DNA of 64,000 nucleotides, taken from positions 7,941,001-8,005,000 of the forward strand of contig NC_092674.1 of NCBI RefSeq assembly GCF_964355755.1. Direction: 5' to 3'. The notes below the pieces were generated by a model. The model worked only from the letters and a program-made list of their open reading frames with translations, searched no databases and had not been told where the DNA came from. This document shows positions 1,042-50,799 of this stretch, piece by piece (position 1 is the first letter of the stretch; every line of letters begins with the position of its first letter). This DNA is from Antedon mediterranea (Eukaryota > Echinodermata > Crinoidea > Comatulida > Antedonidae). The position numbers were made by a program, and so were the translations under genes.

Positions 1042-1255
1042 TCAATCAACTGTGTTAACATAAACATGTTCCGGTGCAGGCTTGGTGTTTGCATAAACAT
1101 GTTCACCAGATGAGGATTCAACAGCAGGTTTAATTTCTTCATACTCACTTTCTTCATATTTCTTAGATAGACTTTGATAATTTGTATCTATTGTGCATAC
1201 ATTTTGTTGAACATCAAATTTAGCAGCGTGTTTTCCTGAATCTATACGTCTAAAT
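1042..1255 (-). CDS. Unit A exon 13: cytoplasmic tail with ITAM-like motif
   Basis: The last 71 residues. YQSLSKKYEESEYEEI (1179-1132) fits the ITAM spacing YxxL-x8-YxxI. It is followed by VYANT and VYVNT (YxN, the Grb2-SH2 type). YEEI also fits the Src-family SH2 preference. The frame ends with TGA at 1044-1042, so there is no enzymatic domain. If phosphorylated the tail would recruit SH2 proteins; that is known of such motifs, not shown here. Confidence 0.8.
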
Positions 1256-4200
1256 CTAAAAGAGACCAAATGTATTTATATCAATCAATTAATAAAAAAA
1301 AATTAATAAAAAATAAATATTTCATCAATATCAAACAAGGCCAACAGCCATTAAGTCGCGTGCTACAATGCATAGTGATACCGGACCGACAGACAAACAG
1401 ACCGACAGACAGACAGACCGACAGACAGACGGACCGACCGACCGACATAGTGAACTATACTGACCGAAATTACTGAACATGTTTAAAAATGTTGAAATGT
1501 TTAAAAACATTTATATTTTTTTAATTTACACGTGCGTAGCCTGTCACTTTTGACGTGCTCGTATAACGTAATTTCGAGTTGAAAAGTAAGTCAAGAAAAC
1601 AGAAATCGGGCAAGAAGAGTGCGCAATAACATTTAACGTGCAGTGCGCGCGCAAAAATCTGCGCACTCATGGCAATTTTGTAAACGCTTAAAATTGCCTG
1701 AAACGTACTCTTATTTCATCGAAAATAAATTTTGAAAATTTTAAACGCGCTTACGCATGCGTTACATGCGCTACGCACGTAATTGTATTGCCATATGATG
1801 ATTTATGCCCTGAAATTTATGAGTACCAAATTTTATTTAATTGTGATTCATGGTTGTTAAGATATGATTACAAACGTGATTTCGTTAAATCGTGCGTAGA
1901 CCACGTAATTTTTTATTGCGTAATTTTCGATGAAATAAGAGTACGTTTCAGTCAATTTTAAGCGTTTACAAAATTGCCATGAGTGCGCAGATTTTTGCGC
2001 GCGCACTGCGCGTTAATTGTTATTGCGCACTCTTTTTGCCCGATTTCTGTTTTCTTGACTTACTTTTCAACTCGAAATTACGTTATACGAGCTCGTCAAA
2101 AGTGACAGGCTACGCACGTGTAAATTAAAAAATATAACTGTTTTTAAACATTTCAACATTTTTAAACATGTTCAGTCATTTCAGTCAGTTGGTAGGTTGG
2201 TCGGTCGGTCGGTAAACACTAAGCACGCGACTGCAGCCATCTATATGGCCTTGTTCTTTTAAGTTTTAAGTTTTGTGATATGGATAAAATATCAAGCATA
2301 GTAACAGTTTCAGTGTGTGATACTATATGGATGAAATATCAAGCATAGTAACAGTTTCAGTGTGTGATACTATATGGATGAAATATCAAGCATAGTAACA
2401 GTTTCAGTGTGTGATACTATATGGATGAAATATCAAGCATAGTAACAGTTTCAGTGTGTGATACTATATGGATGAAATATCAAGCATAGTAACAGTTTCA
2501 GTGTGTGATACTATATGGATGAAATATCAAGCATAGTAACAGTTTCAGTGTGTGATACTATATGGATGAAATATCAAGCATAGTAACAGTTTCAGTGTGT
2601 GATACTATATGGATGAAATATCAAGCATAGTAACAGTTTCAGTGTGTGATACTATATGGATGAAATATCAAGCATAGTAACAGTTTCAGTGTGTGATACT
2701 ATATGGATGAAATATCAAGCATAGTAACAGTTTCAGTGTGTGATACTATATGGATGAAATATCAAGCATAGTAACAGTTTCAGTGTGTGATACTATACCG
2801 TTTATACATCATCACGATGACAGCAACTGTGATAACTGCCGCGATTAGTGAGCCAATTACAACACCTATGATGTAACCTGGAAAATATAAAAGGACAAAT
2901 TTTCTTGTTTTATTTACATTACTGGTACTGAATCTAATAAGAATTCCAAACAATGAACTATGTATAATACACACCTTGTTTCTTTTGGTCACAATTTGGT
3001 CCAAAAATGAATTTCTTTGTGTCAGATGTCCCACTAACGTGTAAAAATGATGCCAATACTGTGAATGTATATTCTGTACATGACTCAATTCCTTCACCAA
3101 ACAAAACTTGAGTTTCTGTAGTATTTCTTTGCTGAAATATTCCACCACCTGACAGTTCATAATGGTAGGTCACCTGATAGTTTGGAATGTCACATGTAGA
3201 AGCGTTCCATTTCATCAGTATATGTGTTCCATTTGTGAATGGATTGCTTTTTATCGATGGCTCTATTATTGTAACATAGAATATTAAACAGATTTTTAAT
3301 AAATGAATTATACTAGACATTAAGAATTGTTTCAATTGGCCGATAAAATGTTTTACCCATTTTTTTATATATAAACTTTACACTAAATGACCAACTAGGC
3401 CTAAATGTTAGTAAAATACACTCACACATTTAATGATTTAAGCATACCTGATGGTGCTGTTTGTATCAATATGTCCTCTCCCCAATTACCAACAATCTCC
3501 ATATTATTAACAACTCGAGCGTTTACGACATAAGCAGTACAACTTAATAATCCTGGTAGTTGAACTTCTAATTGAGAACTGTTTGTTGTGTTGACTACAT
3601 TTAGTATACTTCCATCGATGTCTGAGTACTGCACTTGATATCGAAGGATATAGTTACACTGGATTCGATCATAATCACTAGAAACAGACTGAAATACAGA
3701 AAAAAGACAAATACCGTTATTTGAATCTGATACTGGTAACCAATTTCTGTTTGATAATATGTTATATTGTAAGGACAAACAATTAGAGAATACTTTACAA
3801 CTTTACTTGCTTGAACTTACTTAGTTCATTTACAAATACCAATAACGTAATGTATACGGTATTTACATTCACTACTTTAATTAGACTTTCTAGTAGGCCT
3901 CCTAGTTCCGTAATAATTAATTTGTTGATTGTGGAACTTACGATAATGAAGAACAAACAAGAACAATAAAAACATATCTAGTGTACCTTTAAATTCACTA
4001 TCATCTGATTATCTCCAATGGTTTTTAACTCCATCTCAGGTTCTTCTAAAGGCTCTATTTCATAATATGTAACACAGCGGATTAGAACAGACATACAAAA
4101 TACAACGTGGTGTGCTATGGTAGATATCATAATAATTTTTCTAACAACAAAGAATAAATAAAGGAATATCTCATATAATCCAACAAAAAGTTAGCATACT

Positions 4201-7200
4201 GTAAAACAAGTAAAAATTAATAATCTGTGAATGATAAAATCCTTAAAACAAATGTTGGCAATCTTTTAATTCTAGATCTATAGATACTAGATTTATAAAA
4301 TCAGTTGACGCGTTGCTGATTACATGGCTTGGCAGTTTGTTAACTGATTATCTGTAATGTTAGATCTTGCCTGAACATATTGTGTTGGTTGATCCAAGTG
4401 TACTTCTTGGTCCATCTACCTCAATACCACCAACCATCCTCGAAAACTGAGAGTAGAATTGAACTTGCGTATTTGGGATAAGTTTGTCAATGACAATACA
4501 TAAATCATTATATGATTCAGTTATTGATATAAATGAATCCATCTCCGATGATTTATACGAAAGTTTCCGTTTTGTAATTGTTCCTGTTCCATAGTCTTCA
4601 CCAAGAATCCAAGTGACGTCAAATGTTATACTTGCTGCTGTCTGATTTACAACAGTTGGTGGTTTAAAGTTGTATGGTAATGCTATTTATGAAAATAGAA
4701 AACACACTGAACTATTAAAACAGAATACATGTAGGCCTATGTGTTGTTCTGCCGTATAAACTTTACTAAATCATCTGCATATCTAATTAGATGGTTTTAC
4801 TCGCTTTATAGTCGGATGTATAGAGACTATAATGACTTCAGAGATATAGATAATATATGGGCAAGGCAATTGAGAATAATTCATAGAGAAACATACGATA
4901 AATGTTCATGTGGAGCAATTTGTCGATAATCAAGTGTAAATATGATTATGACTATCAATCTGTTTGTGTGTGCATCATAATTTTTGTGCAAATTAATTAA
5001 TTATTCTCTTTATGTGTATATAATCAGGTTTTAAATGTTTTTTTTATATTTACATAATTGACTATTTTGTAGTTTTTGTAGGGCTGTGGATACTCGCATG
5101 TTTTTGCGCATTGTTGCTTTCGCAACCTCTATTTTTGACCGATTGTGTTGATAAAATAAATGGAATGAATAAATAAAACTGTAAAACATGGAAACATTTG
5201 ATGATCCTAGTTGCCTATTGTGAATTTTCTAAATGGAAATCAAATTAACTGCATCTTCAGTTATACAATGAGGTACTACAGAGAAAAGGCAAGATGTATG
5301 TATGTGTATGTATTTAATTAATTAACTTTCATGACAAAATATGTAACTAATAATCTAATCTCTCTCTCTTTTCCGATAATTCTTCAGGCTACTTTGAATA
5401 GCTGAAAGTATACGACATATATAGTTTAATGTCGTGTAGTTACCTATGCTGCAGTTTGGTCCAGCCCAAGCTTCATGGCATCCATTATCGCAACCTCCAT
5501 CTCGATTACAATCTGCCGAAGCTTTGCAGTGACACAGGAAATTACACAAAGCACCAAAGAATCCGGATGAACATGACGGAGGCTCTTTAGAAACCAAGAA
5601 TAATATCATTAGCAATTTCAATGTACTGTACAGTATAAATGATTGTGTAAAAGTCAAAGAAAACTTAATTGAGTAGAAACTCAGTTACCAAAGTAAATGC
5701 ATAGAATTGACCAAAAGGTTTAATTTTCCTCCATTGTCCCATTATATTGTTCGGATTGATTTTTTGGTGAATTTGTGAATTTATTCGGGGTGAATCGCCA
5801 TTCAAATGGATCAGTGGTACATTTTAAACCGCCCAGTGATATAAAGAAAAGTATCTATCTTATTTTTAATAATATACTACCTAAACACGTGTCTCCTGTG
5901 TAACCAGACGAACATTTTGAACCGGAAATGCATCCTGTTGTTTTATTACAAACGCCATTGTCACAGTTACATTTTTGACGACAATCTGCTCCATAGTATC
6001 CAGCATCGCACACTGGAAAACATGAAACAATTGTAGTTTAAAATACTTACATCTTATCTAATATTAAAAACTGTAAAAATCAATCTTATACAGAAAATAA
6101 TAAAACAAAACAACTATACGATTAGTAATAATAATAATACTGAGATATGGTACAAATAGTACGAACAGTAATCACGGTGATAGATGTGAAAGCAGTGAAG
6201 CGATATCAATAGTATCAGCCGATTCTGCTACTGTCAAGAGGTATCTATCTGTAAAACTATGTACAGCATTTCTGCAGACAGCAACGTATATAACTTGCTA
6301 TAGTTGTATAGATAGATACCTCTTACAGTAGCAGAATCGGGTCCTAGTATATGAATTAGCCTAAAGGCAAAATTCGACATATCCCTCCAAACACCTATCG
6401 AAAACCAGTATACTAATCAAGTTTAGTTAGAAAAGTATTTAGGTTAAACGTAAATATTGTAAATAATGTGTATTCATAGTTATGTTACGTCATCATTGGA
6501 TGGCGGTCAATAATGTTAAACTTTATAGTAGTGACCTGTAGGGCTTAAGTTTGAGTTTTCGTCTGACATCAATAGTTGAAAAAATAGTTTGGCATAATGG
6601 CAAAGATAATTAAGAAATGCTTTTTTGCATAATTTATCATAATTTTGGAAATTTATTTATTTTATTAAAACATATTACCTCAACAACATATTTTTTGAGT
6701 ATTAATAGCACTAATAACACTAAAATATAATAATCATTATTTTCATCATAGGCACAAAACATATAAAATGTTCTGACCTGTAGTACAGTCTCTTCCTCCA
6801 AAACCTTTCATACATGTACATCCAACTGGATCAGGTGGACAGAAAAAAACCCCAACGCAATTTCCACCAGTAGAACAGTTACTGTTGCATTCATGGCCAA
6901 AGTTGTTAATTCTACATCCTTAAAAAATACATTAAAAGTATCTCATAAAAGAAACATCTTTACTACATCATAAAAGTATTATTATCTTATCCTTTGTATA
7001 GTATTGTATGTTTTTAACTGTTGTTATTTTTATTGTAATTTCAACCTTGGAAGGCAAATTTCATTTACAGTGTATTTGACAATAAATTTGAACTTGAACT
7101 TGAACTTGAACTTGAAGTAATTTGACAAATAATTAAAATAAAAACAAATTGTATCAAAAATAAAATTCGGAATTATTTACGGTCATTAATTTTGTTATAC

Positions 7201-10040
7201 ACTATCCCTTCACTTTGGAAACATATGTAAGCTAAAAAATGAAAGCAATACTGGATATGTAATTTAGACTTTACTTTTGACTGTTCTGACTTTACGAAAA
7301 AGAAAACATTTGATGATGCGCAAAAACACTAACGAAAGTACAAAATACCAAACTATATTATTTTTGTTGGTTTTCGTGGTGTATTAATTATTTTGATAAA
7401 TTTAGATAAAACAAAAAAGTTGACAGAAATCGAATGAAAAACATATTGCTGCGGAAACACGAATTGTTAAGTTTTTATGTTCTATATCAAACCATTTGGA
7501 ATCGTTTTGTTTGTGGGTGTTCATCATCATCTACATTTATTTTTATTTCAATGGTTTTGATATTTTGCATTTTCGTTTGTGTTTGGGAGATTTGATACCT
7601 ATTTGCTACTTTTTTAATTTTAAAACTGTGGTTTAGAAGTAAAGGTCATGTCTGCCTTAACAATAATTCGCATGGGATGAAAAAGCGCACTCTTCGCCCC
7701 GGCTCCTGAAAATCATGTTAAGAATTGTCAAGAAAAAATTCAGAACTATTTACGGCCATGATTTTGTTATACACGGAGTATTCCTTACTTTATAAGTGAA
7801 AGCAATAGTGGATATGGGAACTTTGTGGTGATCTAGGGTGCGCATCAGAGAGTGACAATGTGCATGAGAGAGAGGATGAAGTCTGTCAATCAGTAGGCAG
7901 TGTTGGAATAATAATAAAACTACAGCTGACTGACGGACTTTTATGAATAATGTGTTGAAAATAGATGATGATGTTTAATGTTTATTGCTTAATAACAATA
8001 ATAAATGTTATGTTTTAATAATTTGTTTACCTCCGCCAAGGATGTATATGTAGTCGATCGCTTGTATTTGTATCTGTCTGTTTGTTTGTTTGCAAGATTA
8101 CTCAAAAAGTGCATATTACAAGATTTTTACGAAAATGAAAATACAGATAAATATGTGATCAAGGACCAGGGTCCCAATTCTGGACCACTTTTTAGTATTA
8201 TTTTCAGACCTGCCAGATAGGAGACAATTCTCAAAAGCCGGCGAGCAGTCTTAAAGTAACAAGTAACCTGAACTTGCATTTTCTCGAGAACTACATGTCA
8301 AAAAAAAACTTCATTTTTGTACAGAAGCAAGAGTTATAATTTGTGATTTGTAATTTTAAAACATAATTTGATTTAATGTACAGTTTTATATGATTAGTTT
8401 TAAAAACCCTATTTCTTTTCAAATGTACCCGTTTATTTTTGGCGTTGCTGTTCTATTGTTAATCAACTGAAACTATTGTTAGTTGAAAGGCTGGTTACGT
8501 AACCATTACACCAAATCACACACAGCTCGCATTTCCGGTGAAATCTTATGTAAGAGAATTTTATAGTAGGCGGAGGTATGCACTCTCGGAGTATCGTTCT
8601 AATTTTAAGATTATTTATGTGATTTCCAGTTTTACAAAAATTGCCTTTAAATCCTGCTAATTATATTATAATACAATATAAATTAAGCTATTACCAGTTT
8701 TACAAGAAGCGCCTTTAAATCCTGCTGGACAAATACAGACGCCCGTCTTATCGTCACATACTCCACCATTATAACATATGGGACAGTCCATTTCACAATC
8801 TGGAGGATTACATTTTGGTGATGGACAAGCTATTAAATAAAAATAATAAAAATAATAATAATTTGTCCGAAAATGTAAACAGTCTCTCTGAAAGACAAAT
8901 TATAAGGTCAATGTGTTTTCATTTATTAGAACCAATTAAATAATGTATACTAATTTACTTTTAATTTAAAATATTTACATATTAGTATTATGTTCCAAGT
9001 GTGTATCCTAATCAGATATCAAACTACCTTGTTGGTAAATATTACTAATTGACGATGAAAATGCTTTTACAAAGATTTACCTCTAACAATGAGTCTCATG
9101 ATACCATGGTTACCATCCAGGCTATCACCTGTATAACATTCATATACCCCATCATCTTTCATTCGTATGTTTTTAATCACAGCAGAAGTATTACCTCTCA
9201 GATTGTGTATTTCCTCACCATAATTATGTCTCCAACGTAAATCTTCAAGATCACCACCTTTACTGAGATTGATAGTGACATACTCTCCGATACCGACTGT
9301 TATCGTTCTATACTCCATTTCAATAGTGGCTGTAAAATAATTATATTGGTAAACAGATAATAGTAATAGCTATTAAACAAAATATTAATGTTTTAAAGAG
9401 TATGAATAAAATTAGATATTATTTATTCATTATCGTCGTCCTCAAATTGAGAATAACATCATGACCTTACTCACCAAAAGAGGATGTCAAGACAATTGCT
9501 GAATTTGTGACTACTCCATTTTTCTTTGCTTCAAAAGAAAATACACCAACTCTTTCACTGTGAGGTAAGTCAGAAACACCTAGAAACGTGTGATCATCGT
9601 GCACTCGGTATCTAATTGTGCAACTTGTGGGAAATATTTTATTGCTTGGCATATTTGTTGTTCTTTCATTACCAGTATTGCCATCCGTATACGGCCCAGT
9701 ATCATCCCAAGTCACGTCTTCCCCTTCCATATTCTTGTATAATATTCCTACTGATAAATCTCGAATGTCTTTGTCGTCGTAAAGAGCGTATCCTCGAAAC
9801 CAACTACCATTATTGGCAACCAGTGGTGTTTCAGAATATGTTGTTATATCTAATGGATCTTTAAAAATAAAACATCATTTTTATGAGGAGAAAAAAAATC
9901 GGTAAATCGCTCGTAACTTTTACAATTTATAGTCTTCAATGACCGGCAACTAAGTACATACCTGAGGAGAATCCGGAATAAAACCTTAAAGAGAGAGCTA
10001 TAATCACGTAGAACAAGTTTGGAAAACGTTTAGCCAACAT
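1042..10040 (-). CDS. Unit A: Tie-like ectodomain receptor with ITAM-type tail (13 exons)
   Basis: Predicted single-pass surface receptor of 820 aa. Exons in order: 10040-9962, 9858-9475, 9329-9081, 8829-8695, 6918-6778, 6012-5881, 5584-5444, 4682-4371, 4054-3987, 3688-3448, 3262-2975, 2877-2799, 1255-1042. Their total of 2,463 bases is one uninterrupted frame ending in TGA. Domains: signal peptide 1-26, N-terminal domain 27-154, Ig-like 155-237, four EGF-like 238-420, three FN3 421-723, TM 724-749, tail 750-820. EGF2 has CPPDPVGC and the FN3 set follows the EGFs, as in Tie receptors, but there is no kinase. The tail ends 71 residues after the membrane and carries tyrosine motifs. Junctions are GT-AG except the GC donor after exon 8. 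Ligand and function are unknown; adhesion or immune recognition is inference. Confidence 0.85.
1334..2255. mobile_element. Foldback element FB1 with TCGG/ACCG arrays
   Basis: Long inverted arms (about 1480-1735 and 1925-2175) are near-perfect reverse complements. Outside the arms are ACCG/GACA repeats (1385-1445) and TCGG repeats (about 2198-2212). The outer ends are aacaaggcca...gtcgcgtgct and its complement. It lies in the last intron of unit A. No coding capacity was seen. Related shorter copies lie at 11.3, 17.2, 34.7 and 35.1 kb. Confidence 0.8.
2278..2797. repeat. 47-bp minisatellite, about 11 copies
   Basis: The unit starting atggatgaaatatcaagcat has period 47 and the copies are almost identical. 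The last copy runs into the donor splice site of unit A exon 12. The gatactata part of the unit matches the start of that intron, so the array probably grew from the intron's 5' end. Confidence 0.95.
2799..2877 (-). CDS. Unit A exon 12: transmembrane segment
   Basis: A 79-base exon encoding a hydrophobic helix (YIIGVVIGSLIAAVITVAVI) followed by basic YKR as stop-transfer. It enters in phase 1 and leaves in phase 2. Its donor (CG|gtatag) directly touches the 47-bp minisatellite at 2278-2797. Confidence 0.85.
2975..4682 (-). CDS. Unit A exons 8-11: three FN3 domains
   Basis: Exon 4682-4371 encodes FN3-1. Exons 4054-3987 and 3688-3448 together encode FN3-2 (68+241 bases, split domain). Exon 3262-2975 encodes FN3-3. 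Recognisable FN3 elements are FDVTWILGEDYG, LIPNTQVQFYSQ, YILRYQVQYS, SCTAYVVNARV and CTEYTFTVLAS. The donor after exon 8 is CAG|GCAAGA, a GC type; unit B has GTAAGC at the same place. Confidence 0.85.
4741..5180 (+). other. Insert in unit A intron with 62-codon ORF, unknown
   Basis: The intron between EGF4 and FN3-1 is about 760 bp here against about 230 bp in unit C. The extra sequence holds an ORF (4741-4929) ending CSCGAICR and then an AT-rich tail with AATAAA-like motifs near 5150-5180. It could be a retrocopied 3' end or repeat; I do not recognise the product. Confidence 0.3.
5444..8829 (-). CDS. Unit A exons 4-7: four EGF-like domains
   Basis: Exons 8829-8695, 6918-6778, 6012-5881 and 5584-5444 each encode one cysteine-rich module of 44-47 residues and are all phase 1-1. 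Module 1 has CYNGGVCDDKTGVCICPAGF. Module 2 has the CPPDPVGC motif. Module 3 has GYYGADC. Module 4 has GCHEAWAGPNC. The spacing of the first three follows the Tie EGF block. The introns hold a LINE/SINE-like tail near 7.0 kb, a MITE at 8.03-8.59 kb and a hairpin at 6.2 kb. Confidence 0.85.
6219..6340. repeat. Hairpin MITE in unit A intron
   Basis: Left arm 6219-6250 and right arm 6310-6340 are near-perfect reverse complements (ccgattctgctactgt and acagtagcagaatcgg). They enclose about 60 bp. No ORF. Confidence 0.75.
6990..7116 (+). repeat. LINE/SINE-type 3' tail ending in (TTGAAC)n
   Basis: The sequence tgacaataaatttgaacttg continues as about five AACTTG hexamers. An AATAAA-like element followed by a short tandem hexamer is typical of some non-LTR retroelement 3' ends. 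No coding part was seen. Confidence 0.55.
8029..8592. mobile_element. Degenerate MITE with cctccgcc / ggcggagg ends
   Basis: It begins tacctccgccaaggatgt and ends with the inverted ggcggaggta followed by tgcactctcggagt. The interior has tctgtttgtttgtttgcaag and acgaaaatg-type sequence, which I recognise as a pattern common in invertebrate non-autonomous elements. The family name is not certain. Confidence 0.55.
9081..9329 (-). CDS. Unit A exon 3: Ig-like domain
   Basis: An 83-codon phase-1 exon. It shows the late-strand Ig signature DDGVYECYTG and the earlier tryptophan in LRWRHN, but the first canonical cysteine is absent (VTINLS at that place). The same exon is present in every unit and is the best conserved part of the distal ectodomain. 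Confidence 0.8.
9475..9858 (-). CDS. Unit A exon 2: N-terminal domain with variable loop
   Basis: This 128-codon phase-1 exon encodes a domain I cannot name with certainty. Conserved anchors in all copies are GYAL, DIRDLSVGILYK, a TWDDT-like segment, KIF, GVFSFEAKK and NSAIVLTS. Between TWDDT and KIF the copies differ in length and sequence. By position it matches the membrane-distal Ig region of Tie proteins, but it lacks an obvious Ig cysteine pair, so homology is tentative. Confidence 0.75.
9962..10040 (-). CDS. Unit A exon 1: signal peptide
   Basis: The start ATG is 10040-10038. It encodes a short basic start (MLAKRFPNL) followed by a hydrophobic core (YVIIALSL) and ends in phase 1 before gtatgt. 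The same exon type recurs at 22244, 35555, 37385 and 50799 on the minus strand, which fixes the start. It directs the protein to the secretory pathway. Confidence 0.85.
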
Positions 10041-12418: not shown

Positions 12419-12713
12419 GTTTGTTGATCCAAGTGCACTACTTGGGCCTTCTACTTCAATACCACCAACCTTCCTCGAAAATTGAGAGTAAAATTGAACT
12501 TGCGTATTTGGGATAAGATTATTAATAATAAATACATCATCATCTGGTTCAGTTACTGAAATAAATGAATGTTAGAGTGGATGCTGTCTGGTAGACGGTT
12601 CAGAACTGTACGGTAATGCTATAATTATGGAAAAAAAAAGTACAGAAGATTATTCCAAAGAAAAGATAGGTTTATATAATTATGTTTTAGTTTGGAAATC
12701 GTTTAGCCGACAT
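12419..12713 (-). pseudogene. Relic receptor unit: truncated exon 1 plus broken FN3-1 exon
   Basis: At 12713-12690 the first eight codons of the signal exon survive (MSAKRFPN) and are followed directly by a stop. About 70 bp further on, 12618-12419 matches exon 8 (NNLIPNTQVQFYSQ, VGGIEVEGPSSALG), including a gtaagc donor. It is 200 bp instead of 312, with an internal deletion and a stop in its 5' part. Exons 2-7 and 9 onward are missing. This is the remains of another tandem copy between A and B. Confidence 0.75.
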
Positions 12714-15693: not shown

Positions 15694-15925
15694 TCATTTT
15701 TCAACTATGTTATCATAAATATGTTCCGATAAAGGCTGTTGAGGGTTAGCGTAAACGTGTTCAGGTGGAGAAGTAGTACCAGCAGTAGGATTAATGTCTT
15801 CATATTGACTTCCTTCATATTTTTTAGACAAACTCTGATAATCTGTATCTATTGTACAAACATTTTGTTGCACAGTAGAAGATGTATTTCCATAATTTCC
15901 TGAATGTATACCGGTACGTCTGTAT
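15694..15925 (-). CDS. Unit B exon 13: cytoplasmic tail with ITAM-like motif
   Basis: 77 residues. YQSLSKKYEGSQYEDI (15840-15793) keeps YxxL-x8-YxxI spacing, as in unit A. Further sites are NYGN (YxN), YANP (YxxP and YxN) and YDNI (YxN and YxxI). Stop TGA at 15696-15694. Confidence 0.82.
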
Positions 15926-23279: not shown

Positions 23280-23318
<39 letters not shown>

Positions 23319-39302: not shown

Positions 39303-39479
39303 TTATTCCGATAATCCGTTGCCATCATCACACGTTCTCAGATAACATAATGCAGCGTCATAGCAAAAGTTGTATTGGACCTAAATTAGTAAAATAATTA
39401 TAAAACTACTGTTAAATACAAAGTACTACGTTCACGTAATGTGCTTGTTAGATTTGAGTTAGTCCAGGGTTCACTCTTT

Positions 39480-39496
39480 CTCCCCCCCCCCCCCCT
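39480..39496. repeat. Poly-C tract
   Basis: Run of C in the intron between exons 18 and 19 of unit D. Unit C has no long C run at the matching place (about 24260). Confidence 0.9.
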
Positions 39497-40123
39497 GGTT
39501 ACGTATATAATTTTCTTATAAAATAAATTTCCTCACTATTAAAACTAAATAAAACAATTACCTCAGAGTCCACCATAGTGGGGCATGCTGACCGCAGTGC
39601 TTTAAGCGTCTGGAATATATCCACCACCTTGTCATCTCGCATTTTCTCGATCATAGAATAAACTAGACAAAACAACCCTGATCTGGAAACACCGTCTCTA
39701 GAGATTGATATAGATTGTGTTTTTTTAGTTTTTATAAATTGAATCTAAAACTGACCAACTTACAGGCCCGCAGTGTTTCCGCAGCTCCAAATTAACTGAT
39801 AATTAGCCGATAACCGGGGTTTACCGATTCTACTCTAAAAATTAACCGATAATTATCTCATTCAAATCGGATAATTATCGGGGAAATGCGATAATGTTTT
39901 AACCTTTGACCAGAAGAAAAATGTTTGTGTTGTGAGTGTGTACCTAGTTGTTTTGTAATGAATGATCATGCGCACTTTATTTTTTAATTGATTACCTGAT
40001 TGGTTGACAAATTTACCGACAATTTTTTTTTTTTGGATGCGGAAACACATGTCATGTGTCTACGTTGAAAACACAAATATTAATTAACATAATTATAAAA
40101 CTGCAATATTTTTAGTATTACAT

Positions 40124-40266
40124 AATAATAATAATAATAATTTAGGTATTTGTATAGCGACAGAATAAACTAAACCGAAGTAAAAATCAAAGATGCGTTT
40201 TAAGTTCTTTTTTAAAAATAGCAATAGAAGTTGATTTAGTAAAATGACGATGGAGAGAATTCCAAA
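40124..40266 (-). mobile_element. LINE 3' stub inserted in unit D
   Basis: Minus-strand reading gives WNSLHRHFTKS, then IFKKELKTHL and a stop (40264-40187). This is the end of a LINE reverse-transcriptase polyprotein, followed by an (ATT)n tail. Unit C lacks the insert at the matching position (about 24910), so it arrived after the C/D split. Confidence 0.75.
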
Positions 40267-42524
40267 GATGACAAACTGCTGTAGAAAGAATACGCTACAT
40301 TTTCCTTTACTAATATATTAATATATTCTAATAACAAGTAGTAGAGAATATTTAAATTTATACCCACGTGCAATGAACAGTGATCGATGTATTGGTAGAA
40401 GACGTAGCACGTCCTTCCATTATCGTCATAATGAATTTAACAAATGCATCAATTTCAGGAACAGGTTTACTTTCTGGCCATTGGTTAACCTCATACAGAA
40501 TAATTTGCTGTACATTGTTATTCTACAAACACAAAACAAGGAATTATTAGTTTGAATTTTACTTACTGTTATTTGTTGTTCTTTGTTCAAATTGCTGTTT
40601 TCGCGATAACCATTTTATTTAAACGTTTTCTGTTTTTTTCCCTCCTGTCTTAGGAATTATGTAAACAATTGTTCTACTGCAATTACTCCATTAATTACAT
40701 CGTTTACTGCAATAGGAATAATCTTAGTTGGTTTCAGTGCAGAGATGTAGGTATCTATTATAATGTAATCTTCAAAAGAATCTTGCTTACATTTGTCTGT
40801 AAAATGTAAAAATATAGATACTGCTGTAACTCATGCATTACAATAATTTTGACATGGTACTTCAACAAAATATAACTAGAAAAAATGTAGTAACCTTTCC
40901 TAGATTTAATTTTCTCTCAGTCATATATTCGTTCTGAAAGTTTGACTTAGCAGTCACGGTTAATTCACCAAATGGTTGTTTTTGGTTGATCTTTTTCGGG
41001 AGGTACATGGCACTCGTTAGGTCTTCCATCTAATGTAGTTGTACAATGACGTCAGATTTAAAATCAAACACCAAACGCCAAAAATCGATCGTGGTATCCG
41101 ATAATGGTGTCCGAGTAACAACAAAAGCACGGCGACCCTTGTGACGCTAGGGTATAAATAAAAGATAACACCGGAAAATATTTGTGTTAAAATAAGTATT
41201 TAAAAAAGAGTATTTCTTCTATAATTGTCTTGCATGTGAATATTACTATCTTTACAAATTGCTTTTGAGATCTTTTTTCATTTATTACGTTCTCATATTA
41301 ATTGAGAAACAACATGTTTTTAGGTTCAGTTTGATTTCAAATAGCGCTAGCTTATGCCCCTCGCTTTCCTTTGAATGAGACGTTCACGTCCTCATACCTC
41401 AATGAGCGCAGCATTTACGTAATCTGCACCACTGCCAACATCCGGATTTAGTTGAAAACATCTTTTAGTCACTGTGATAAATTAAATAATATTAAGAAGC
41501 TTAATTAATTGATCTACTAATAATCGGGCTTATATAGTCGAGGTTCTAATCCTCATAAAAATCGTGATCATATTTAATAATCTTTGATGAACACATGCAA
41601 TTCAAAATGGCCATAAAAAAACCGGCTGAAAATTACTACATTACACCATTGAACCGTTCTTAATTGTGACGTTATGTTCTTGCTGTATAATAATAACCAC
41701 ATTATATTTAAAAACTTTTTTTATCAATAATAGTCAACGTATAGTAATAATTGGTCAGTTGTTTGCCCTACTTTTACGTAATTTGTACATACCGAGAATT
41801 CTCGGGTACATTATCATCAACATTGTTAATTACACTGATGTATTAAGTATGTAACTTACGGAACAAAACATTATGAAATGTGTCCTGGCAACTGATATCT
41901 TGTCGTCTAGTTTGTGACGCAAGATCTTCACCAGGATGTGGAAGCAAATTACGCAACGTCTGCGAATAAATGCATTGTTTAATACAAAATGTTTATCCGA
42001 ATCGTATATTCGTCATCGATGTCACAACCAACATTGCTACTATTAGTCATAGCCATTTCCTTTTTTTTTTTGCTTTTTATTTGTGTGCTTAAAACGCAGG
42101 CGAAAGAAATCCAATTTACTATTTTGTCGTTAAATATGTTCTTCTTTTTTTAAATTTTCATAACATAACGTGTTAGGCAATGTATTGCTCCCCCTTTTGT
42201 ATGAAATTCATTAAATAAGACTCATTAGGTAATTTAAGAATTGGCAGTCAGTTTTATGTGTGTTTAAAACTCGAGAGAAAGAAACGTATTATTTCATTGG
42301 GAAATATTTTATATTTTTTTTTCTTTTCTATGTATTTTATCATTTTTTAATAACTTTATGAATTCAATTTTCCTGTTTTCGTTTATGCTTTATTAAATAA
42401 GACTAATTAGTTAAACAAGACAGTCAGACATTAATTCTTTGTAATATAGAGAGATTCGTTCTGGTGTTGATTCTGAGAGGATAATGGGTAATTAATTTAA
42501 AAATTAGAACAAATCATGCTTTAC

Positions 42525-43005
42525 CTCAAATTCTTTCTTTAATTGATGCTTCGTTACATAGCCATGCAGTTCGGATAACTCAATAGGTTTATAGTCTTCA
42601 TTTTTAGATTCTGTGACATCATAAACAAGGTCCGGCTCAGGTTCAGGGTCAGCGTATACGGGTTCAGTAGAAGAAGCAGCAACTTTTGATTTAATATTAG
42701 TATATTCAATTTTATTTTCAAATTTTGTGACGTCATAAACATGTTCAGGTTCCGGCTCTAAATCAGAATCTGGCTGTGTGTATACGGCCTCAGCACGGTT
42801 CACATAGGCATGTTCAGGCTCTTTCTCGGGTTTTGTGTATACATACATGGCAGAAGATTTAGTGGCAGCAGTAGACTGAATACTTTCATATTCTCTTTCT
42901 TTTTCAGATACATTTTGATATTCCGTATCTACAGTGCTTAGGCCTATATTCTGTTGACTAGTTGAAGATTTACCAACGTTGCCTTTGGAAAACAAGTGTC
43001 TAAAT
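42525..43005 (-). pseudogene. Unit D exon 13: tyrosine-rich tail
   Basis: 160 codons, open, two codons longer than in C (YDVTES against YEES). It keeps YQNV/YESI, YTKP, YTQP, YADP and YVN. The start of the TM exon (43291-43213) has an Arg (VIRVVIGSL) where the paralogues have Gly. Confidence 0.8.
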
Positions 43006-43710
43006 CTGAAATGAACAAATCATAATGTTTAAAAGAATGTATGTGTACGTCATCATCATTTTGATATTCTCTGTAATGGTTTTTTTTTAATTTTGTTAAT
43101 GCAGATATTTGTAATATTTACAATTTAGTATGATATTATTTTTGTAATACTGTATTTATTATCTGAAATATTTTTTTAAGAATATTTCTGTAAAAAGTAT
43201 TATAATACTTACCGTTTAAATATTACCAAAATGATTGCTACTGCGGCAACTATGGAAATTAGTGAGCCAATTACAACTCTTATTACGGTACCTAGAAAAT
43301 TATTTAATGCTTAATATGTTCATAAAGTAGTCATTTGAGGAGGGGGGGGTAGCAAAACAGTACAAAGGAAAATGTAAGAAATTAAGGGAAAAAAGAGAAG
43401 TAATATGATTAAAGAAATATATATATTTGAAGACAAATATTACTGATTATTTGTAATGTATTTAATTATGATGTGAAGGAATAAAGTGGTGGTTTACGCC
43501 ACAAAGGAGAGAAAAAAACGTAGTCATTAGGCATAAGTTATAAAAAAAAACAATGGCTTTAATAGAAAAAAATATTTATTTTTTTATATTAAAATGTTGT
43601 TTACCTATATAATCCATTCAAAGTTCAATATTTTTCTTCGTAGGACTAAGATTTTCGATTTTTATAGTTACTGAATTCTATTCACAAAGCACAAACAGTA
43701 AGGAACTAAC

Positions 43711-46576
43711 CTTGCTTCTTTTGATCACAATCTGTACCAAAGATAATGGTCATTACGTCAGATGTCCCTCTTACGTTTAAATAAGACGCTAAAACTGTGA
43801 ATGTATATTCTATACACGAATCAATGCCTTCGTCAAAAACAACTTCAGTTTCTGTTGTAGTTCCTTGCTGAAATATTCCACCTGATAGTTCATAATGGTA
43901 GGTCACCTGATAGTCTGGAATGTCACATGTAGAAGCGTTCCACTTCATCAGTAAATGTGTTCCATTTGCAAATGAATTGCTTTGTATCGATGGCTCTATT
44001 ATTTGAAAAAAGAATAAATATACTATATTAAAAATAATTACTGTGATTATTAGGACTATCCTATGAGTAAATCTTTAGATTGAATACAATATAGTTAATA
44101 ATAGGAATAAGCATACCTGAGGGCGATGTTTGTACCGTTATGTCCTCTCCCCAATTACCAGCAATCTCTAAGTTATTAACAACTCGAGCGTTTACGACAT
44201 AATCTGTACAGCTTGATAATCCTGATAGTTGAACTTCTAATTGAGAACTGCTTGTTGTGTTGACTACACTTAGTATATTTCCATCTATGTCCGAGTACTT
44301 CACTTGATATCGAAGGATATAGTTACACTGAATTCGTTCATAATCACTAGAAACAGGCTGAATTATATAAAATAATACGTCAGAAAGAATGAGAATGAGA
44401 ATAAATACTTTTTCAGACATAGGCCAATAGAAATTTAGCTTAATCCTGTTAGCGGATAAAACAAGTTTACGAAAATTCCATTTACGTAAGTGAATGATTT
44501 GTGGAATTATCCTTGTCTACAGCAGCTCTCCGTAAAAAATGTAGGCCTATACAACACGTAAGTCAATTATAATTATATACAATTTTCAAACCTACTACTG
44601 TAGTTCAGGGGAATGGGTTTGTTTCCCTTTACTGGGATTGGAGTAAGAAACCGGCATCTATCAACGGAAAAACAGGAAACAGGATTGATATACTATTATT
44701 TACACCAAGCAAAACGTGTGAACAAAAAAAAATACTTTAAAACCTCTAAACACAATTTGACCTGGTTTTCTTCAACAGATTTCAGTTCTATCTCAGGTTC
44801 TTCCAAAGGTTCTATAACATAAAGAATGAAATTGCTGAGCAAACAGAAATCATGACGACATGCTTTATTAAATCGCTTCTGTATAAATATAGTTTAAAAT
44901 GTATTCTCAAAATGCACATTATAAAAATGTAAAAGTAGTCCAATATGTTTCAATTTTATAACTGACCTTCACAGATTGTGTTAGTTGTTCCAAGTGCACT
45001 TCTTGGTCCATCTACCTCAATACCACCAACCATCCTCGAAAATTGAGAGTAAAATTGGTATTGTGTATTTGGGATGAGATTATTGATAACAAATAATACA
45101 TCGTTATCTGGTTTAGCCATGGATATAAATGAATCCATTTGAGATGATTTGTACTCAAGCTTCCGTTTTGTGATTGTGCCTGTTCCATAGTCTTCACCAG
45201 GAATCCAAGTGACGTCAAAAGTTAAGGTAGTTGCTGTCTGATTTATATCACGTTGCGATTCAGTGTGGTATGGTAAAGCTATTTAATAAAACACATATCT
45301 GTGTATATTTTAAACAAAAACGGTGCTTTTTAATTTAACTTATATTAATAAAACAATATAAACATGTAAGCATGGAAGGTGATTTTTTTTTTCGTTCACC
45401 TTTCTTCACCCTCTCCATTTCTCCTTTCTCCCAACTTTAAATTCAGAAAAGTATCTCAAAGCTTAGGGTCTAATTATTCCTCATAATATAAATAAATGTG
45501 TGTCGTTACCTATGCTGCAATTTGGTTCAGCCCAAGCCTCGTGACATCCATTAGTACAACTTCCATCTCGATTACACTCTTCAGAGTCTTTGCAGTGACA
45601 TGGGAAGTTACACAAGACACCGAAGTATCCGGATTGACATGACACAGGCTCTTTACAAAAAAAAATATGATTATTATGTTTGTCATTAAAACTATTTAAC
45701 TCCAAAACTAATACAAGCTTCTGCAATTGTCTAAATCTAAAGAACATATGCTATAGGTTCTTTGCTCAATCTTATCACATTCGGTACAGCTCATTAGGAA
45801 GTATACTCTACAGTTAGAGGGAAAATGGCACTGTGGTCATGTTAACAATATAGATTATCTGATCAAATTCCTAGAAAGTAGGAAACATTTTGCCATTTTT
45901 TCCTGACTGTTCATGGTTCTCACACAAAAATAAGACTGTACAGTATTTTCAAGGTTGTTTTTCTTTCTACATGGTAAGTTAACAATATTTACAAAGGAAA
46001 CATAAAAATGATAATAAAAGAAAATGGTATCAAATTGTCAAATATCATTACCTAGACACCTGTCACCGGTGTAGCCAAACAAACATGTTGACCCAGAAGT
46101 ACATCCTGTATCTTGGGTACAACTGATGATATCACAGTTACATTTTTCCCGACAACCAGCTCCATAGTACCCATCCTCACAAACTTAAAAACATAAAATG
46201 AAGAACTTGTGTGCGATAACTCATGTCATGTCTCATGTTTCACATAGAAAATATAGGCCTATTAGTAACAATATACACGACCAATTATTAAATAAATATT
46301 AATTAGGCCTACATTATAAAACATACTATTCAACAAACCATTACCATAACTAACGAAAATTGTTAAAGGATTTTAGTATAATTGCTTTTCTGATCTTTGC
46401 TGATACATATGATATAGACCTAATTAAAATCTAACCTGTATCACAATCACTTCCTCCAAAACCATTGATGCATGCACAACCAACTGGATCAGGTGGACAT
46501 AAGAGAAATCCTCTGCAATTTCCAGTAGAAGAACATACAACTTTGCATTCACGACCCCAGTTGTTATTTCCACAGC
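43711..46576 (-). pseudogene. Unit D exons 5-11: EGF2-4 and FN3 domains
   Basis: Exons 46576-46436, 46183-46052, 45650-45510, 45278-44967, 44811-44744, 44357-44117, 43995-43711. From exon 6 on they are almost identical to unit C in exons and introns alike. EGF2 (exon 5) is more diverged. Confidence 0.82.
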
Positions 46577-46637
46577 CTCTTAGTAAACATCATATTATAT
46601 TAAGTGTATATTATGTGTTTTTACAAATTTAAAAGGC

Positions 46638-46686
46638 AACATATTGTTTTACCATTATTTTGATAATGGTAAAACAATATTATGTT
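46638..46686. repeat. Hairpin in unit D insertion
   Basis: acatattgttttaccattat and ataatggtaaaacaatatta form a near-perfect inverted repeat with a short loop. Confidence 0.8.
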
Positions 46687-47729
46687 TTAAAAAAACATGA
46701 AAAAATCAATTTAAAAAAATAATAATAAAACATACCGCCGGTTTTCTATATATAAATTTACGTAGGGGCAAAATTCGGTAAATCGCGCGTTATTTCTAGA
46801 ATGTTTACTCGATGGTATATAAAGTTGGTTCGTACTTTCGGTACTGATTTTAACCGCCTGATGTAAACCTGTTTACTAATTAAATTGAGTTCAATAATTA
46901 GTTATTGACGATTAAAACGAATTTAGGTTCAATGATTTTCCCCAAATAGGGGTGTTTTTCGATCGCGGTATTGAATTGAAAAATACCCGCAGACGATAAT
47001 ACGAGGATGCTTCGCATTTTCCTATCTCCTCCTACGATAATTGTTTTTAATGGCTGAAAACCGGTTGAACAGCTCGAGTACAGCATCATAATGTTGAAGA
47101 CAGGCCGATTTTCTTTAAAAAATACTATTTTGATAGATTTAATATACGTTTATACAAATGTATTGATTTGCGATGAATGGAACATTCCAATCTCTGTTCC
47201 ACAATTGTCTATTCCCTCAGGCGTCGTAAAGGCCAGTACTGTATACTCATAACAGAAATTCGATCAATTTTTTTTTTTCAATCTGTGCTGCAGAGGTTGG
47301 ATATAATTTTTTTTTAAACGGATAAAGAGCTAGCGTTTTCACTCGCCGTATATTATGTATAAATCTTTATTATTGCAGTTAAACCACCCACATCATCACC
47401 CTTCCCTCACTGGCATGAGTAGCGTTGTAAAACCAGTAGAGGATAGGCCTACGGTACATCACATGCCCTCTTAATAAGTATGAAACAATTGAAAACCATT
47501 AGGCCTACTAATTAAGTTGAGTTAGATAATTTAATATTTATTGACGATTAAATCGAATTTATGATTTTCCCCGAATAGAGGTGGTTTTCACAAATTGTTT
47601 TACATTATATAAAAATATACACGTCGTAGTGATGTATCGTTACATGTACTGTACTATTTCAATCGACTTGGACGGTGATAGTTTCAACAAATTATTACAT
47701 CGCAATGTTTTACTGTGTTTAGTGGTATA

Positions 47730-48122
47730 TTATTTGTAAAACATGAAAACAATAATAATAATAACTGGTACTTGACAATTTAGAAATTTCCAAATTAAAA
47801 AGTGGGTTTTGAGGAGAGATTTGAAGACACTGGTGGAAGTAGCCTGACGGATTTCAATAGGCAACGCATTCCATAGAGAAACGGATGCCGAAGAAAACTT
47901 AGTGGAAAGATGAAATATATGGGCAAGAAGAGACTCAGATCTAGATCTCAGAGACCGCTTAGGAACATAAGGTTGAATAAGTTCAATTAATATTTCGTTA
48001 CTAAATGGATAAAGAATATATTTAAAAATGGTTCCTCTTTGCACCCATCCTCTTCCCCATCCCTCAACCCTAATGTTACATACAAAACACAAATTAAGTT
48101 TGTTTAAATTTGACTTAAACAA
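47730..48122 (-). mobile_element. LINE reverse-transcriptase ORF C-terminal fragment
   Basis: 130-codon open frame. It contains RSLRSRSESLLAHIFHLSTK, SLWNALPIEIRQATS and FKSLLKTHF, the usual end of a CR1/L2/Jockey-type LINE polyprotein. It is followed on the minus strand by an AT-rich ATT tail. 5'-truncated, hence dead. Confidence 0.8.
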
Positions 48123-48600
48123 TTGGTCTCATTTTGTGACAAGTTTCTCTTTCGGAAGTAATTCCCATGGTGCTAATTTTAGTTGAGTACATAAATCACA
48201 GTGTCTATTTATTCGTTCCTGTAGGCTGTAAACGACATGTATTATTGTCCTACGGTACGTACATTTGAAATCGCCAGTTTTTTAACGCTGAAATTATTAT
48301 GTATTCAAGAACCATCTGTGGGCACGACCTAGATGGTACGCTCGCTTCGCTCGCGTACCATCTAGTAATCACAAATTTAAGCAAGCATTTTTTATTTATT
48401 TTATATGTTTTGATATTAACTCGTTTTGCTTTCTTATTATGAAATAATCGGTACTTTTCTTCAATCATTTTCGTATCAGTATATTACTTACACATTCTTA
48501 TTTTTTTAATAATCAAAATTATTCCGCTTGCGTTCGAAACTTCTCCAGTCGACTAATTAACATAAATAACATGCTATGTTTGATATTAATTTGTCTTTAC

Positions 48601-50799
48601 CATTTTGACAAGAATTGCCTTGAAATCCTGCTGGACAAATACAGATACCCGCCTTATCGTCACATACTCCGGAATTAAAACATACGGGACAGTCCATTTC
48701 ACAATCTGGAGGATTCCATTTTGCCGAAGGACAAGCTATTAAGATACAATATTGAAAACAATTTAAACAACTTGTAATAAATTGAGCGAGTTTCCTAAGC
48801 CTACCAGAAATACCACGTGTTGGCCTATAAGGATAAACAGAGGCGCCTCATAAGGTGGAACCACCTAAGCTTCAAGACGTCTCATCGTTGTACATAATAA
48901 AACAATAAAGAAAGTCACATAATATTCTATAATCATCGCACGCAATGAATTCTTTTTATTTATGTGAAATTATTTATGAGACCCAATCAAATATGATGCA
49001 ACATTTATAGTCCTGCATTTTTTTCCTGCTGTACACAGCTATTATTTCAACTAAATGCTATAATAGTTCTTATGGTTGACCAGATAAACAATGGTTAAAA
49101 AAGTACCTCTAAATAAGTAGACCTATAACTGTTAAAACCTACCTCTAACAATAAGTCTCATAATACCATGGTTACCATCAGGGCTATCACCTGTATAACA
49201 TTAATATACCCCATCATCTTTTATTCGTATGTTTTCAATCACAGCAGACGTATTACCCCTCAGATTGTGTATTTCTTCACCGTAATTATGTCTCCAACGT
49301 AAATCGTCAATATCACCACCTTTACTGAGATTGATAGTGACAGACTCTCCAATACCGACCGTTATTGTTTTGTACTCCATTACAATATTTGCTGTAAAAT
49401 AATAATTGGATAATGAAAAAAATCTATACTTTTATTTACGTAGAATTAGTTTAACGTAGTTCTATGAACAATCCTACAACAAAATACCAAAGATAATTTT
49501 ACAATTAAAGATATTGTGAGGAAATCTTGCCCATACTCACCAGAAGTGGATGTCAATACAATTGCTGAATTTGTTACTACTCCAGTCTTATTTGCTTCAA
49601 ATGAAAATACACCAACTCTATCAGCGTGAGTTTGAACGTTCGTAACACCTAGAAATGTGTGGTCTGAATATATCCGATATGTAATACTGCTACTTGTGTG
49701 AAATATTTTACCGTCTGGCATATCTATCGTCTGAGCTCTAGTGATAGCCCCACTGGCACCAGTATCATCCTAAGTCACGTTAGTTTCCCCGTCGATATTC
49801 TTGTATAATATTCCAACTGATAAATTTCTAATATCTTTGTCGTCTTGAAGGGCGTATCCTCGAAACCAACTATCACTAGCTGTCGGCCGTGGTGTGTTGG
49901 ACAAAAGTGTAATGTCTAATGGACCTTAAAATAATAATAGCAATCAGTCATTTTGCTGCAATTAAATTAGCTTTATAACATACCTTTGTATCTACATTTG
50001 ACTCAAGCTACAGTCACTACAGTGGAAATTCAATGGAGAGATGTAAGTATGGCCATTTTTTAGGCTGGCAGGGATTTAGACAAGTGGTATTGTAGTCTCC
50101 AGATACAATGTAATTTCAATCTGTATACAGGATAGAGGCGTAAATGTTAAAGCCATTAAGCCTACTGTAGGCCTATGTAGTTGTAGTTATTTGTGCCGAA
50201 ATAGGCATAAAACTAAATGACTTTTTTACAAACATCTTGATCAGGAATAGGTTTGATGAATTACTTCAAATAAGTAGGCTACAGTAGAGTACAAATAATG
50301 TAATCTAGCTTTCAGTCGATAAATGTAAATTTTTCTTGAGTATGAACGTATCATATTCGGTGCATGAATAAATATATTGATCAATAATAAAGATTCGGCA
50401 AGATTTTACTTCACATATATACATACGGACTGACAAGCAAAACTAGAAATATACTAGGACTTTACTATTCATTTTTTCCACTATACTTAATTCTAACATT
50501 CTCATGTAAATGGTAGGTTATTTAGGTCAGTAATTGGAAAGTTAGAAACATCATGGAGAAAACTAATAATCCTCTATTAGGTAAACTCTCGCACATTACA
50601 TTTGGTATTAACAGGGAGTTAAGTCAGAAATTCGTTTGTAAGAGTACAATTTTAAACATTATATTAGAGCCACTTATTGCAACTAATTTAAAAAGTAAGC
50701 AGATTAATCTTAAAGCAGCATACCTGATAAAACAAATCCACACGTCAAACTGAGAGTTATAACCAGACGAAACAAAGTTGGAAAGCGTTTGTCCAACAT
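48601..50799 (-). pseudogene. Unit D exons 1-4: signal, N-terminal, Ig, EGF1
   Basis: Signal exon 50799-50724 (MLDKRFPTLF...VITLSLTC). Exon 2 49924-49541 with TAG at 49772-49770. Ig exon 49391-49143 with TAA at 49203-49201. EGF1 exon 48735-48601. These exons are clearly more diverged from unit C than the membrane-proximal part. Confidence 0.82.

Follow-up and report, generated by a model that had tools for sequence, protein, structure and literature searches.

In vertebrates, receptor families such as KIR, LILR and the teleost LITR/NITR are encoded in duplicated clusters in which a common ectodomain is joined to variant cytoplasmic ends, one of them generated by truncation. Vertebrate paired receptors carry ITIMs on their long tails, and their short tails use adaptors. 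Clustered invertebrate receptors of the Ig family with ITIM- or ITAM-type tails have been described in Botryllus (the fester co-receptors, FcoR) and in Hydractinia (Alr) (PMC12065747).

Here, we describe a tandem array of about 400 kb of duplicated cell-surface receptors in Antedon mediterranea, part of which is contained in the window, the 64,000-nucleotide stretch analysed here. Four minus-strand units, A to D, run from 50799 (the ATG of D) to 1042 (the stop codon of A). Signal peptide, N-terminal, Ig, four EGF, three FN3 and transmembrane (TM) exons are common to all four, and the 60-100% identity between units across 13 collinear exons excludes a chance likeness. Introns lie in phase 1 everywhere except within FN3-2 (phase 0) and after the TM exon (phase 2), and every splice junction is GT-AG apart from a single GC-AG in A. 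These splice models and matching phases bear out an earlier note on this DNA, which had read four long units with shared ectodomain and TM exons. The tandem array is real, and the number of four units is an artefact of the window, since the genome contains about 31 close copies and a further unit, F, begins on the plus strand at about 52.9-55.9 kb. An Rfam search of the window returned no match. A search of the literature on expanded Tie-like phosphatase families returned nothing on point, which is weak evidence as subscription literature is poorly covered.

Units A and B, and Z, a short-tailed neighbour just beyond the window, are each intact over 13 exons and encode about 820-827 amino acids, laid out as signal peptide, N-domain, Ig, four EGF, three FN3, TM and short tail. 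The first exon of Z lies about 3.3 kb below the stop of A.

1042..10040, minus: unit A, an intact gene of 13 exons encoding 820 aa and ending in a short ITAM tail; stop-free spliced model, GT-AG (one GC-AG)
9962..10040, minus: A exon 1, signal peptide
9475..9858, minus: A exon 2, N-domain, Ig-like in the predicted model
9081..9329, minus: A exon 3, Ig domain, aligns with Tie2 Ig2
8695..8829, minus: A exon 4, EGF1
6778..6918, minus: A exon 5, EGF2 with CPPDPVGC
5881..6012, minus: A exon 6, EGF3
5444..5584, minus: A exon 7, EGF4, at the place of Tie2 Ig3
4371..4682, minus: A exon 8, FN3-1, GC donor
3987..4054, minus: A exon 9, FN3-2 first part
3448..3688, minus: A exon 10, FN3-2 second part
2975..3262, minus: A exon 11, FN3-3
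2799..2877, minus: A exon 12, transmembrane
1042..1255, minus: A exon 13, short tail YQSLSKKYEESEYEEI followed by YAN and YVN, stop TGA
12401..12571, minus: relic FN3-1 exon between A and B
15694..22244, minus: unit B, an intact gene of 13 exons encoding 822 aa and ending in a short ITAM tail
22169..22244, minus: B exon 1, signal peptide
20549..20926, minus: B exon 2, N-domain
20163..20411, minus: B exon 3, Ig
19729..19863, minus: B exon 4, EGF1
19476..19616, minus: B exon 5, EGF2
18859..18990, minus: B exon 6, EGF3
18605..18745, minus: B exon 7, EGF4
18160..18465, minus: B exon 8, FN3-1
17696..17763, minus: B exon 9, FN3-2 first part
16772..17012, minus: B exon 10, FN3-2 second part
16363..16653, minus: B exon 11, FN3-3
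16058..16136, minus: B exon 12, transmembrane
15694..15925, minus: B exon 13, short tail YQSLSKKYEGSQYEDI followed by YAN and YDN, stop TGA at the common frameshift

Downstream of the stop in A, B and Z, the first exon of the next unit is reached without a PTP exon in between, and neither A nor B has a D2-type PTP. A phosphatase for A just outside the window is ruled out, the next unit there being Z, and so is one hidden between B and A, where the relic FN3 exon is the only feature.

The ectodomain is of the Tie class, as had been proposed. In phmmer searches human Tie2 (TEK) is the best solved-structure match to A (E 1e-35) and B (7e-36), the match is collinear over Ig2-EGF1-EGF2-EGF3, and the CPPDPVGC EGF motif is present in 4/4 units A-D. 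Three FN3 domains precede the TM segment, as indicated by Pfam fn3 matches above the family cut-off and by the exon models; FN3-1 aligns weakly to FN3-1 of TEK. In all units an EGF exon, not Ig3, lies between EGF3 and FN3-1. The N-domain has no Pfam match and no detectable sequence similarity to Tie2 Ig1; its AF2 model, of moderate confidence (pLDDT 70), resembles Ig V-type folds with Z up to 8.9, and a Foldseek search with that model gave no match below 0.001. From the model, the N-domain is probably Ig-like. The absence of a kinase, also claimed previously, agrees with our reading through of the cytoplasmic ends and with the lack of PF07714 among the matches listed for C5:7.65-8.08 Mb.

Units C and D do end in a long tail rich in tyrosine, followed by a PTP domain, as the earlier note had stated, but this PTP is only of the membrane-distal D2 type, with a WPE loop. 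The D2 of C (PF00102, E 8e-39) best matches that of PTPRS/LAR. None of A, B, C and D has the catalytic D1 PTP (WPD, HC-x5-R). Three in-frame stops interrupt D, one in the N-domain exon, one in the Ig exon and one in a PTP exon; as assembled, it is a pseudogene that is not coding-competent. Exon 2 of C has one extra base close to a run of T at about 34190 (388 nt vs 378-384), a frameshift that could be real or an assembly error.

24360..35555, minus: unit C, complete ectodomain, then TM, long tail and a PTP of D2 type; exon 2 frameshifted by one base
35480..35555, minus: C exon 1, signal peptide
33828..34215, minus: C exon 2, N-domain, frameshifted
33445..33693, minus: C exon 3, Ig
32964..33098, minus: C exon 4, EGF1
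32693..32833, minus: C exon 5, EGF2
32305..32436, minus: C exon 6, EGF3
31763..31903, minus: C exon 7, EGF4
31221..31532, minus: C exon 8, FN3-1
30998..31065, minus: C exon 9, FN3-2 first part
28832..29072, minus: C exon 10, FN3-2 second part
28420..28704, minus: C exon 11, FN3-3
27917..27995, minus: C exon 12, transmembrane
27233..27707, minus: C exon 13, long tail rich in tyrosine, continuing into the juxtamembrane segment of the PTP, KPIELSELHGYV
26045..26116, minus: C PTP D2, first part (ADYVNAALIE)
25544..25777, minus: C PTP D2, central part
25019..25159, minus: C PTP D2, WPE loop and VHC
24360..24497, minus: C PTP D2, DGVSRSG
39562..50799, minus: unit D, layout as C, stops in N-domain, Ig and PTP exons
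50724..50799, minus: D exon 1, signal peptide
49541..49924, minus: D exon 2, N-domain, in-frame stop (W to stop)
49143..49391, minus: D exon 3, Ig, in-frame stop (E to stop)
48601..48735, minus: D exon 4, EGF1
46436..46576, minus: D exon 5, EGF2
46052..46183, minus: D exon 6, EGF3
45510..45650, minus: D exon 7, EGF4
44967..45278, minus: D exon 8, FN3-1
44744..44811, minus: D exon 9, FN3-2 first part
44117..44357, minus: D exon 10, FN3-2 second part
43711..43995, minus: D exon 11, FN3-3
43213..43291, minus: D exon 12, transmembrane
42525..43005, minus: D exon 13, long tail
41395..41466, minus: D PTP D2, first part
40895..41128, minus: D PTP D2, central part, in-frame TAG
40370..40510, minus: D PTP D2, WPE loop and VHC
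39562..39699, minus: D PTP D2, DGVSRSG

Given the missing D1 and the pseudogene state of D, an active inhibitory arm draws little support from C and D. Units with both D1 and D2 elsewhere in the array are better candidates; a D1 with WPD and HC-x5-R is present, for example, at C5:8052934. Unit F, on the other strand, extends past the window.

53285..53720, plus: broken N-domain exon of a head-to-head unit
54992..55381, plus: unit F exon 2, N-domain
55617..55901, plus: unit F exon 3, Ig
Beyond the window: rest of F, with EGF2 near C5:8016228, tail at 8020582, D1 at 8022973 and D2 at 8024919

Genome-wide, the cytoplasmic ends fall into three classes: a short ITAM tail (n=10), D1+D2 (n=10) and D2 only (seven counted). 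Short units 7848k, 7876k, 7886k and the unit on C7 are free of stops, as are A, B and Z; seven short units are intact over the recovered exons. Broken members of the array are C, D, 7803k and 25284k.

The short tail is the proximal part of exon 13 and is homologous to the proximal long tail of C and D. All short tails examined share one 2-bp deletion in exon 13 that brings a stop into frame just before the PTP segment, and past the stop the DNA of A still reads KPIEL, with which the PTP begins; short-tail units have lost their PTP exons. A separate, unrelated exon as the source of the short tail is ruled out by this homology and the common deletion. The two ends are therefore not independent, interchangeable modules, as the phrase "two alternative kinds" had implied, since the short one derives from the long one, cut off by a frameshift. 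This form is found at three places (C5:7.80-7.96, C5:25.24-25.28 Mb and C7:9.52 Mb), and identity is 78% before the stop vs 52% after it, the same direction being seen in 28/28 pairs.

The ITAM-like tails noted in A and B extend to the entire short class. With YxxL/I-x6-8-YxxL/I in the cytoplasmic tail as the criterion tested, a strict ITAM (YxxL-x8-YxxI) is present in 10/10 short tails vs 2/16 PTP-type tails (Fisher P ~1e-5, for paralogues that are not independent), with P 0.001-0.011 per tail in shuffles. Both ITAM tyrosines are invariant in the short tails, a tyrosine in the spacer is missing in 3/10, and every short tail except one keeps two YxN sites. The tails of C and D have no strict ITAM; the two PTP-type tails with one are D1+D2 tails. 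The long class had the same ITAM-like motif ancestrally, so that activating and inhibitory forms do not separate cleanly. Moreover, the sequences around the second ITAM tyrosine, SEYEGI and SQYEDI, match an ITIM as well, and the motif is thus compatible with a signal of either sign. The SH2 and kinase genes of the genome include Grb2-like, Src-like and SHP-like (two SH2 plus PTP) loci; no Syk was identified among them, and a candidate Syk locus on C11 was rejected because it reads as Src-family.

Mean pairwise dN/dS is <1 in every exon class, with no sign of diversifying selection by this measure. Exon mosaics involve A and 7886k and also C and D, and trees of the two halves conflict. These patterns show that exons pass between neighbouring units by conversion or unequal crossing-over.

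We consider it probable that the locus is an array derived from a receptor tyrosine phosphatase with a Tie-class ectodomain, now bearing three cytoplasmic ends and working like a paired-receptor recognition cluster. The ancestor would have had a tail, D1 and D2, and loss of D1 would have given the D2-only form. The short ITAM tail came from the 2-bp deletion with loss of the PTP exons, and this truncated form then spread to about ten genes at the three places named above. Receptors that share ectodomains may have related ligands. Once Src-type kinases have phosphorylated them, short forms would signal positively by recruiting Syk-type tandem-SH2 and Grb2-type proteins; D1+D2 forms would remove phosphate from tyrosines, and forms with D2 alone may compete or regulate without catalysis. 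Recognition at the immune-cell surface, of self and non-self or of microbes, would be the likeliest setting, and the array may thereby have an immune or allorecognition role. Of the activating/inhibitory pairing suggested in the earlier note, the related ectodomains and three kinds of end are seen; C and D, which lack D1, are weak candidates for inhibitory partners, and the ITAM-like motif is not private to the short class. We counted against the favoured explanation the dN/dS below 1 throughout, the broken members, the ITIM-compatible second tyrosine, the ITAM-like motif of the ancestral PTP tails and the lack of a Syk among the SH2 and kinase genes seen.

A more specific proposal, which we hold only tentatively, is that a class of ITAM receptors for recognition was born by one frameshift that removed the phosphatase from a Tie-ectodomain receptor phosphatase, so that a receptor which erased signals became one which gives them, and was kept beside its phosphatase and pseudophosphatase siblings as an invertebrate paired system. 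If true, an activating immune-type receptor can arise from a receptor phosphatase in one step, with the mutation still legible; the Tie ectodomain of blood-vessel biology would be tied to a large recognition-type array; and D1+D2, D2-only and ITAM ends on one ectodomain would form a testable series for the origins of paired receptors.

An unlikely alternative is a lineage-specific expansion of Tie-ectodomain phosphatases for adhesion or for vessel or tissue patterning, outside immunity. Both Tie2 and the LAR-type RPTPs act in development, adhesion receptors typically have FN3/Ig/EGF ectodomains, and strong diversifying selection is not seen; against this, extensive tandem duplication with mosaic exons, pseudogenes and both short and long tails is a pattern more usual in recognition families, and the short tail fits an ITAM, not the adaptor motifs of Tie or LAR. 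It is improbable that the short units are decoys or dying truncations, disabled phosphatase receptors spread by tandem duplication without new function. Their origin in a 2-bp deletion, the decayed PTP exons and the several broken array members would fit such decay, but the ITAM persists in all of about ten copies at three places, with two YxN in nearly all, the DNA before the stop is far better conserved than that after it, the ectodomains are under purifying selection and seven short units are intact over the recovered exons. Splicing of all units to common downstream PTP exons, with the short tail as an alternative 3' end, is very improbable despite the single phase of the tail exons throughout and the D2 exons at intervals along the array, as no PTP exon follows A, B or Z before the next exon 1, exon 13 of A and B with its in-frame stop would need skipping, and the DNA past the stop is now non-coding.

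The phosphatase-derived recognition array that we favour resembles several known systems in part. Like FcoR and Alr, it places tail variants on related ectodomains; it differs in its Ig-EGF-FN3 ectodomain, theirs being V-Ig/sushi/C2-Ig or Ig, and in an ITAM tail made by truncating a PTP receptor, no PTP-bearing siblings being described in passages of that source on these receptors (PMC12065747). In its long units a D1 with WPD and HC-x5-R is followed by a D2 at the end, as in LAR-type (R2A) and other D1-D2 RPTPs, and the D2 of C is closest to those of PTPRS and LAR. Unlike LAR-type RPTPs, however, the array has a Tie-class rather than an Ig/FN3 ectodomain and a massive tandem copy number, and it lacks D1 in C, D and others and any PTP in the short units. 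With the Tie kinases (TEK/Tie2, Tie1) it shares Ig2-EGF1-EGF2-EGF3 with CxPDPxGC, followed by three FN3 and one TM, but EGF4 stands at the place of Ig3, the N-domain has no detectable Ig1 sequence similarity, and a tyrosine tail with or without PTP replaces the kinase. Finally, in contrast to vertebrate paired receptors, the long tails of the array bear a phosphatase domain and the short tails carry an ITAM of their own.

The four long units with shared exons that the earlier note described lie on the minus strand of the window (contig C5:7941001-8005000 of the 354-Mb genome); designated A to D, they have 13 collinear exons in common. Spliced exon models, built on conserved GT-AG sites with a single GC-AG in A, read without interruption from the signal peptide to the stop codon in both A (820 aa) and B (822 aa), as does the model of Z, the adjoining unit below the window, which has the same form. 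In C and D, exon 13 is long and tyrosine-rich, runs into a PTP juxtamembrane segment (KPIELSELHGYVTKHQLKKEFE), and is followed by D2-type (membrane-distal) PTP exons. D bears stops in its N-domain, Ig, and PTP exons, and the N-domain exon of C has one extra base; thus A and B are intact, and the two PTP units of the window are doubtful as genes. Repeats accompany these units: eleven near-identical (99%) copies of a 47-bp unit lie in the intron directly after the A transmembrane (TM) exon (window 2278-2797), and a block with periods of 127-128, 85-92, 45-47, and 296-393 bp (window 60053-63913) adjoins F, a plus-strand unit extending beyond the window. A 132-aa ORF inside a D intron (window 47733-48128, minus strand) resembles the C terminus of a reverse transcriptase of LINE type; a Pfam search with it gave nothing below 0.01.

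The assignment of the ectodomain to the Tie class was borne out. In a search of all solved structures, A and B matched human TEK/Tie2 (E 1e-35 and 7e-36) collinearly over Ig2-EGF1-EGF2-EGF3, all other matches being far weaker, and Pfam recovered fn3, EGF_2, and a weak Ig. Two departures from the Tie2 layout are well established: the place of the third Ig is taken by an EGF, and no kinase is among the matches listed across the array (C5:7.65-8.08 Mb). The N-domain had no Pfam match. The structure predicted for it (pLDDT 70, against ~56 for the other four models) is similar to Ig V-type folds (Z-score up to 8.9), and a Foldseek search gave no match below 0.001, so that the N-domain is only likely to be Ig1.

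The array receptors fall into three cytoplasmic classes: short tails, in which exon 13 ends at an early stop (n=10), D1+D2, D1 being the membrane-proximal catalytic domain (n=10), and D2-only. Copies are named by contig position in kb.

D2-only units: C and D (window, minus strand); C5:7687k, 7709k, and 7732k; C1:4887k; a unit on C17

The one fully read D1+D2 unit, C5:8043k, has WPD and HC-SGAGR-SG in D1 and WPK in D2. In C and D, the D2 reads WPE and retains HC-x5-R, that of C being nearest to the PTPRS/LAR D2. An RPTP D2 that lacks the WPD aspartate is weakly active or inactive. The D1 domains of loci L022 and L027 keep KNRY where 8043k reads KNQN, a difference in the substrate loop.

The earlier note had described two kinds of cytoplasmic end; the division holds, short in A and B and PTP-bearing in C and D, but in alignment the short tail corresponds to the proximal portion of the long one. 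Alignment around the stop shows a 2-bp deletion (GGTAAC--AC), relative to D1+D2 tails (GGTAACACAC), that is common to the short tails of A, B, Z, 7848k, 7803k, 25284k, 25238k, the C7 copy, and a 7862k remnant. The frame shift causes a TGA to be read, in most short tails, from AATGAAGAATAC, the stretch that codes for NEEY ahead of KPIEL in PTP units. KPIEL is still readable after the stop in the DNA of A and 7886k and is kept out of frame in 7803k, and no D1 or D2 exons lie downstream of any short unit examined. The simplest reading of these alignments would be a single ancestral truncation of a PTP receptor, followed by loss of the PTP exons and amplification to three places.

The short tails are probably not junk. 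YxxL-x8-YxxI is kept in 10/10 and both YxN sites in 9/10, with the ITAM spacer tyrosine replaced by F or C in three of the ten. The strict motif occurs in only 2 of 16 PTP-type tails (C5:8020k and 25204k); C and D have YQNV-x6-YENI/YESI, and other PTP-type tails lack the second tyrosine. The Fisher P of ~1e-5 for this comparison overstates certainty because paralogues are not independent. Mean identity among short tails is 78% before the stop versus 52% after it (higher before in 28/28 pairs), and pairwise dN/dS is below 1 for all exon classes.

Genome-wide, ~31 N-domain exons are closely identical, most at C5:7.67-8.07 Mb; C5:25.2-25.3 Mb has another cluster, and C1, C7, and C17 have lone copies. 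Remoter relatives occur on C4, exon order kept, and at C5:12.0-12.1 and elsewhere; an EGF2-EGF3 query gave at least 143 matches.

C4:1.774-1.8085 Mb (L032-L034): at least three Tie-like units, ectodomain exon order as in the array
C5:8061168-8064352 (L004): ectodomain exons 2-8 only
C6:26.0-26.4, C6:30.4-30.5, C3:13.1-13.2, C3:27.6, C8:10.7, and C8:15.8 Mb: further Tie-like EGF2 exon clusters

Because no tail or PTP exon matched near the C4 units, these may be ectodomain-only or have another kind of end. No tail exon was found for L004 up to the next unit, suggesting either a truncated or a secreted form. Several of the further EGF2 clusters adjoin PTP exons, with no nearby kinase among the matches listed, and the clusters point to a genome-wide expansion. 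Three D2-only units (C5:7687634, 7709693, 7732217 and 7700213, 7717309, 7739837) have identical N-domain, EGF, and PTP exon scores, indicating either that they triplicated very recently or that the assembly has duplicated them.

Exon identities are mosaic. Between A and 7886k, identity is 97-100% in FN3-1, FN3-3, TM, and tail and 72-91% over the exons from N-domain through EGF4; between C and D, it is 97-100% for EGF3 through TM and 81-93% upstream. Trees of the 5' and 3' halves conflict, the sister of A being 7848k in the former (83/90) and 7886k in the latter (100/100). Such a pattern is what conversion or unequal crossing-over gives in clusters of recognition receptors.

The related ectodomains would have related ligands. 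Once phosphorylated, the ITAM and YxN tyrosines of short forms would serve as docking sites for tandem-SH2 and Grb2-type proteins; phosphate would be taken off by the D1+D2 forms, and D2-only forms would act as competitors or regulators. Src-like, Grb2-like, and SHP-like genes are present; Syk was not identified among the genome's kinase/SH2 genes. The receptors may instead have a developmental role. In partial coverage of the literature, no publication describing such receptors was found. They are neither Tie, lacking the kinase and with Ig3 replaced, nor standard RPTPs, D1 being absent or the PTP lost. The closest working analogies are vertebrate paired receptors and Botryllus FcoR/fester and Hydractinia Alr (PMC12065747).
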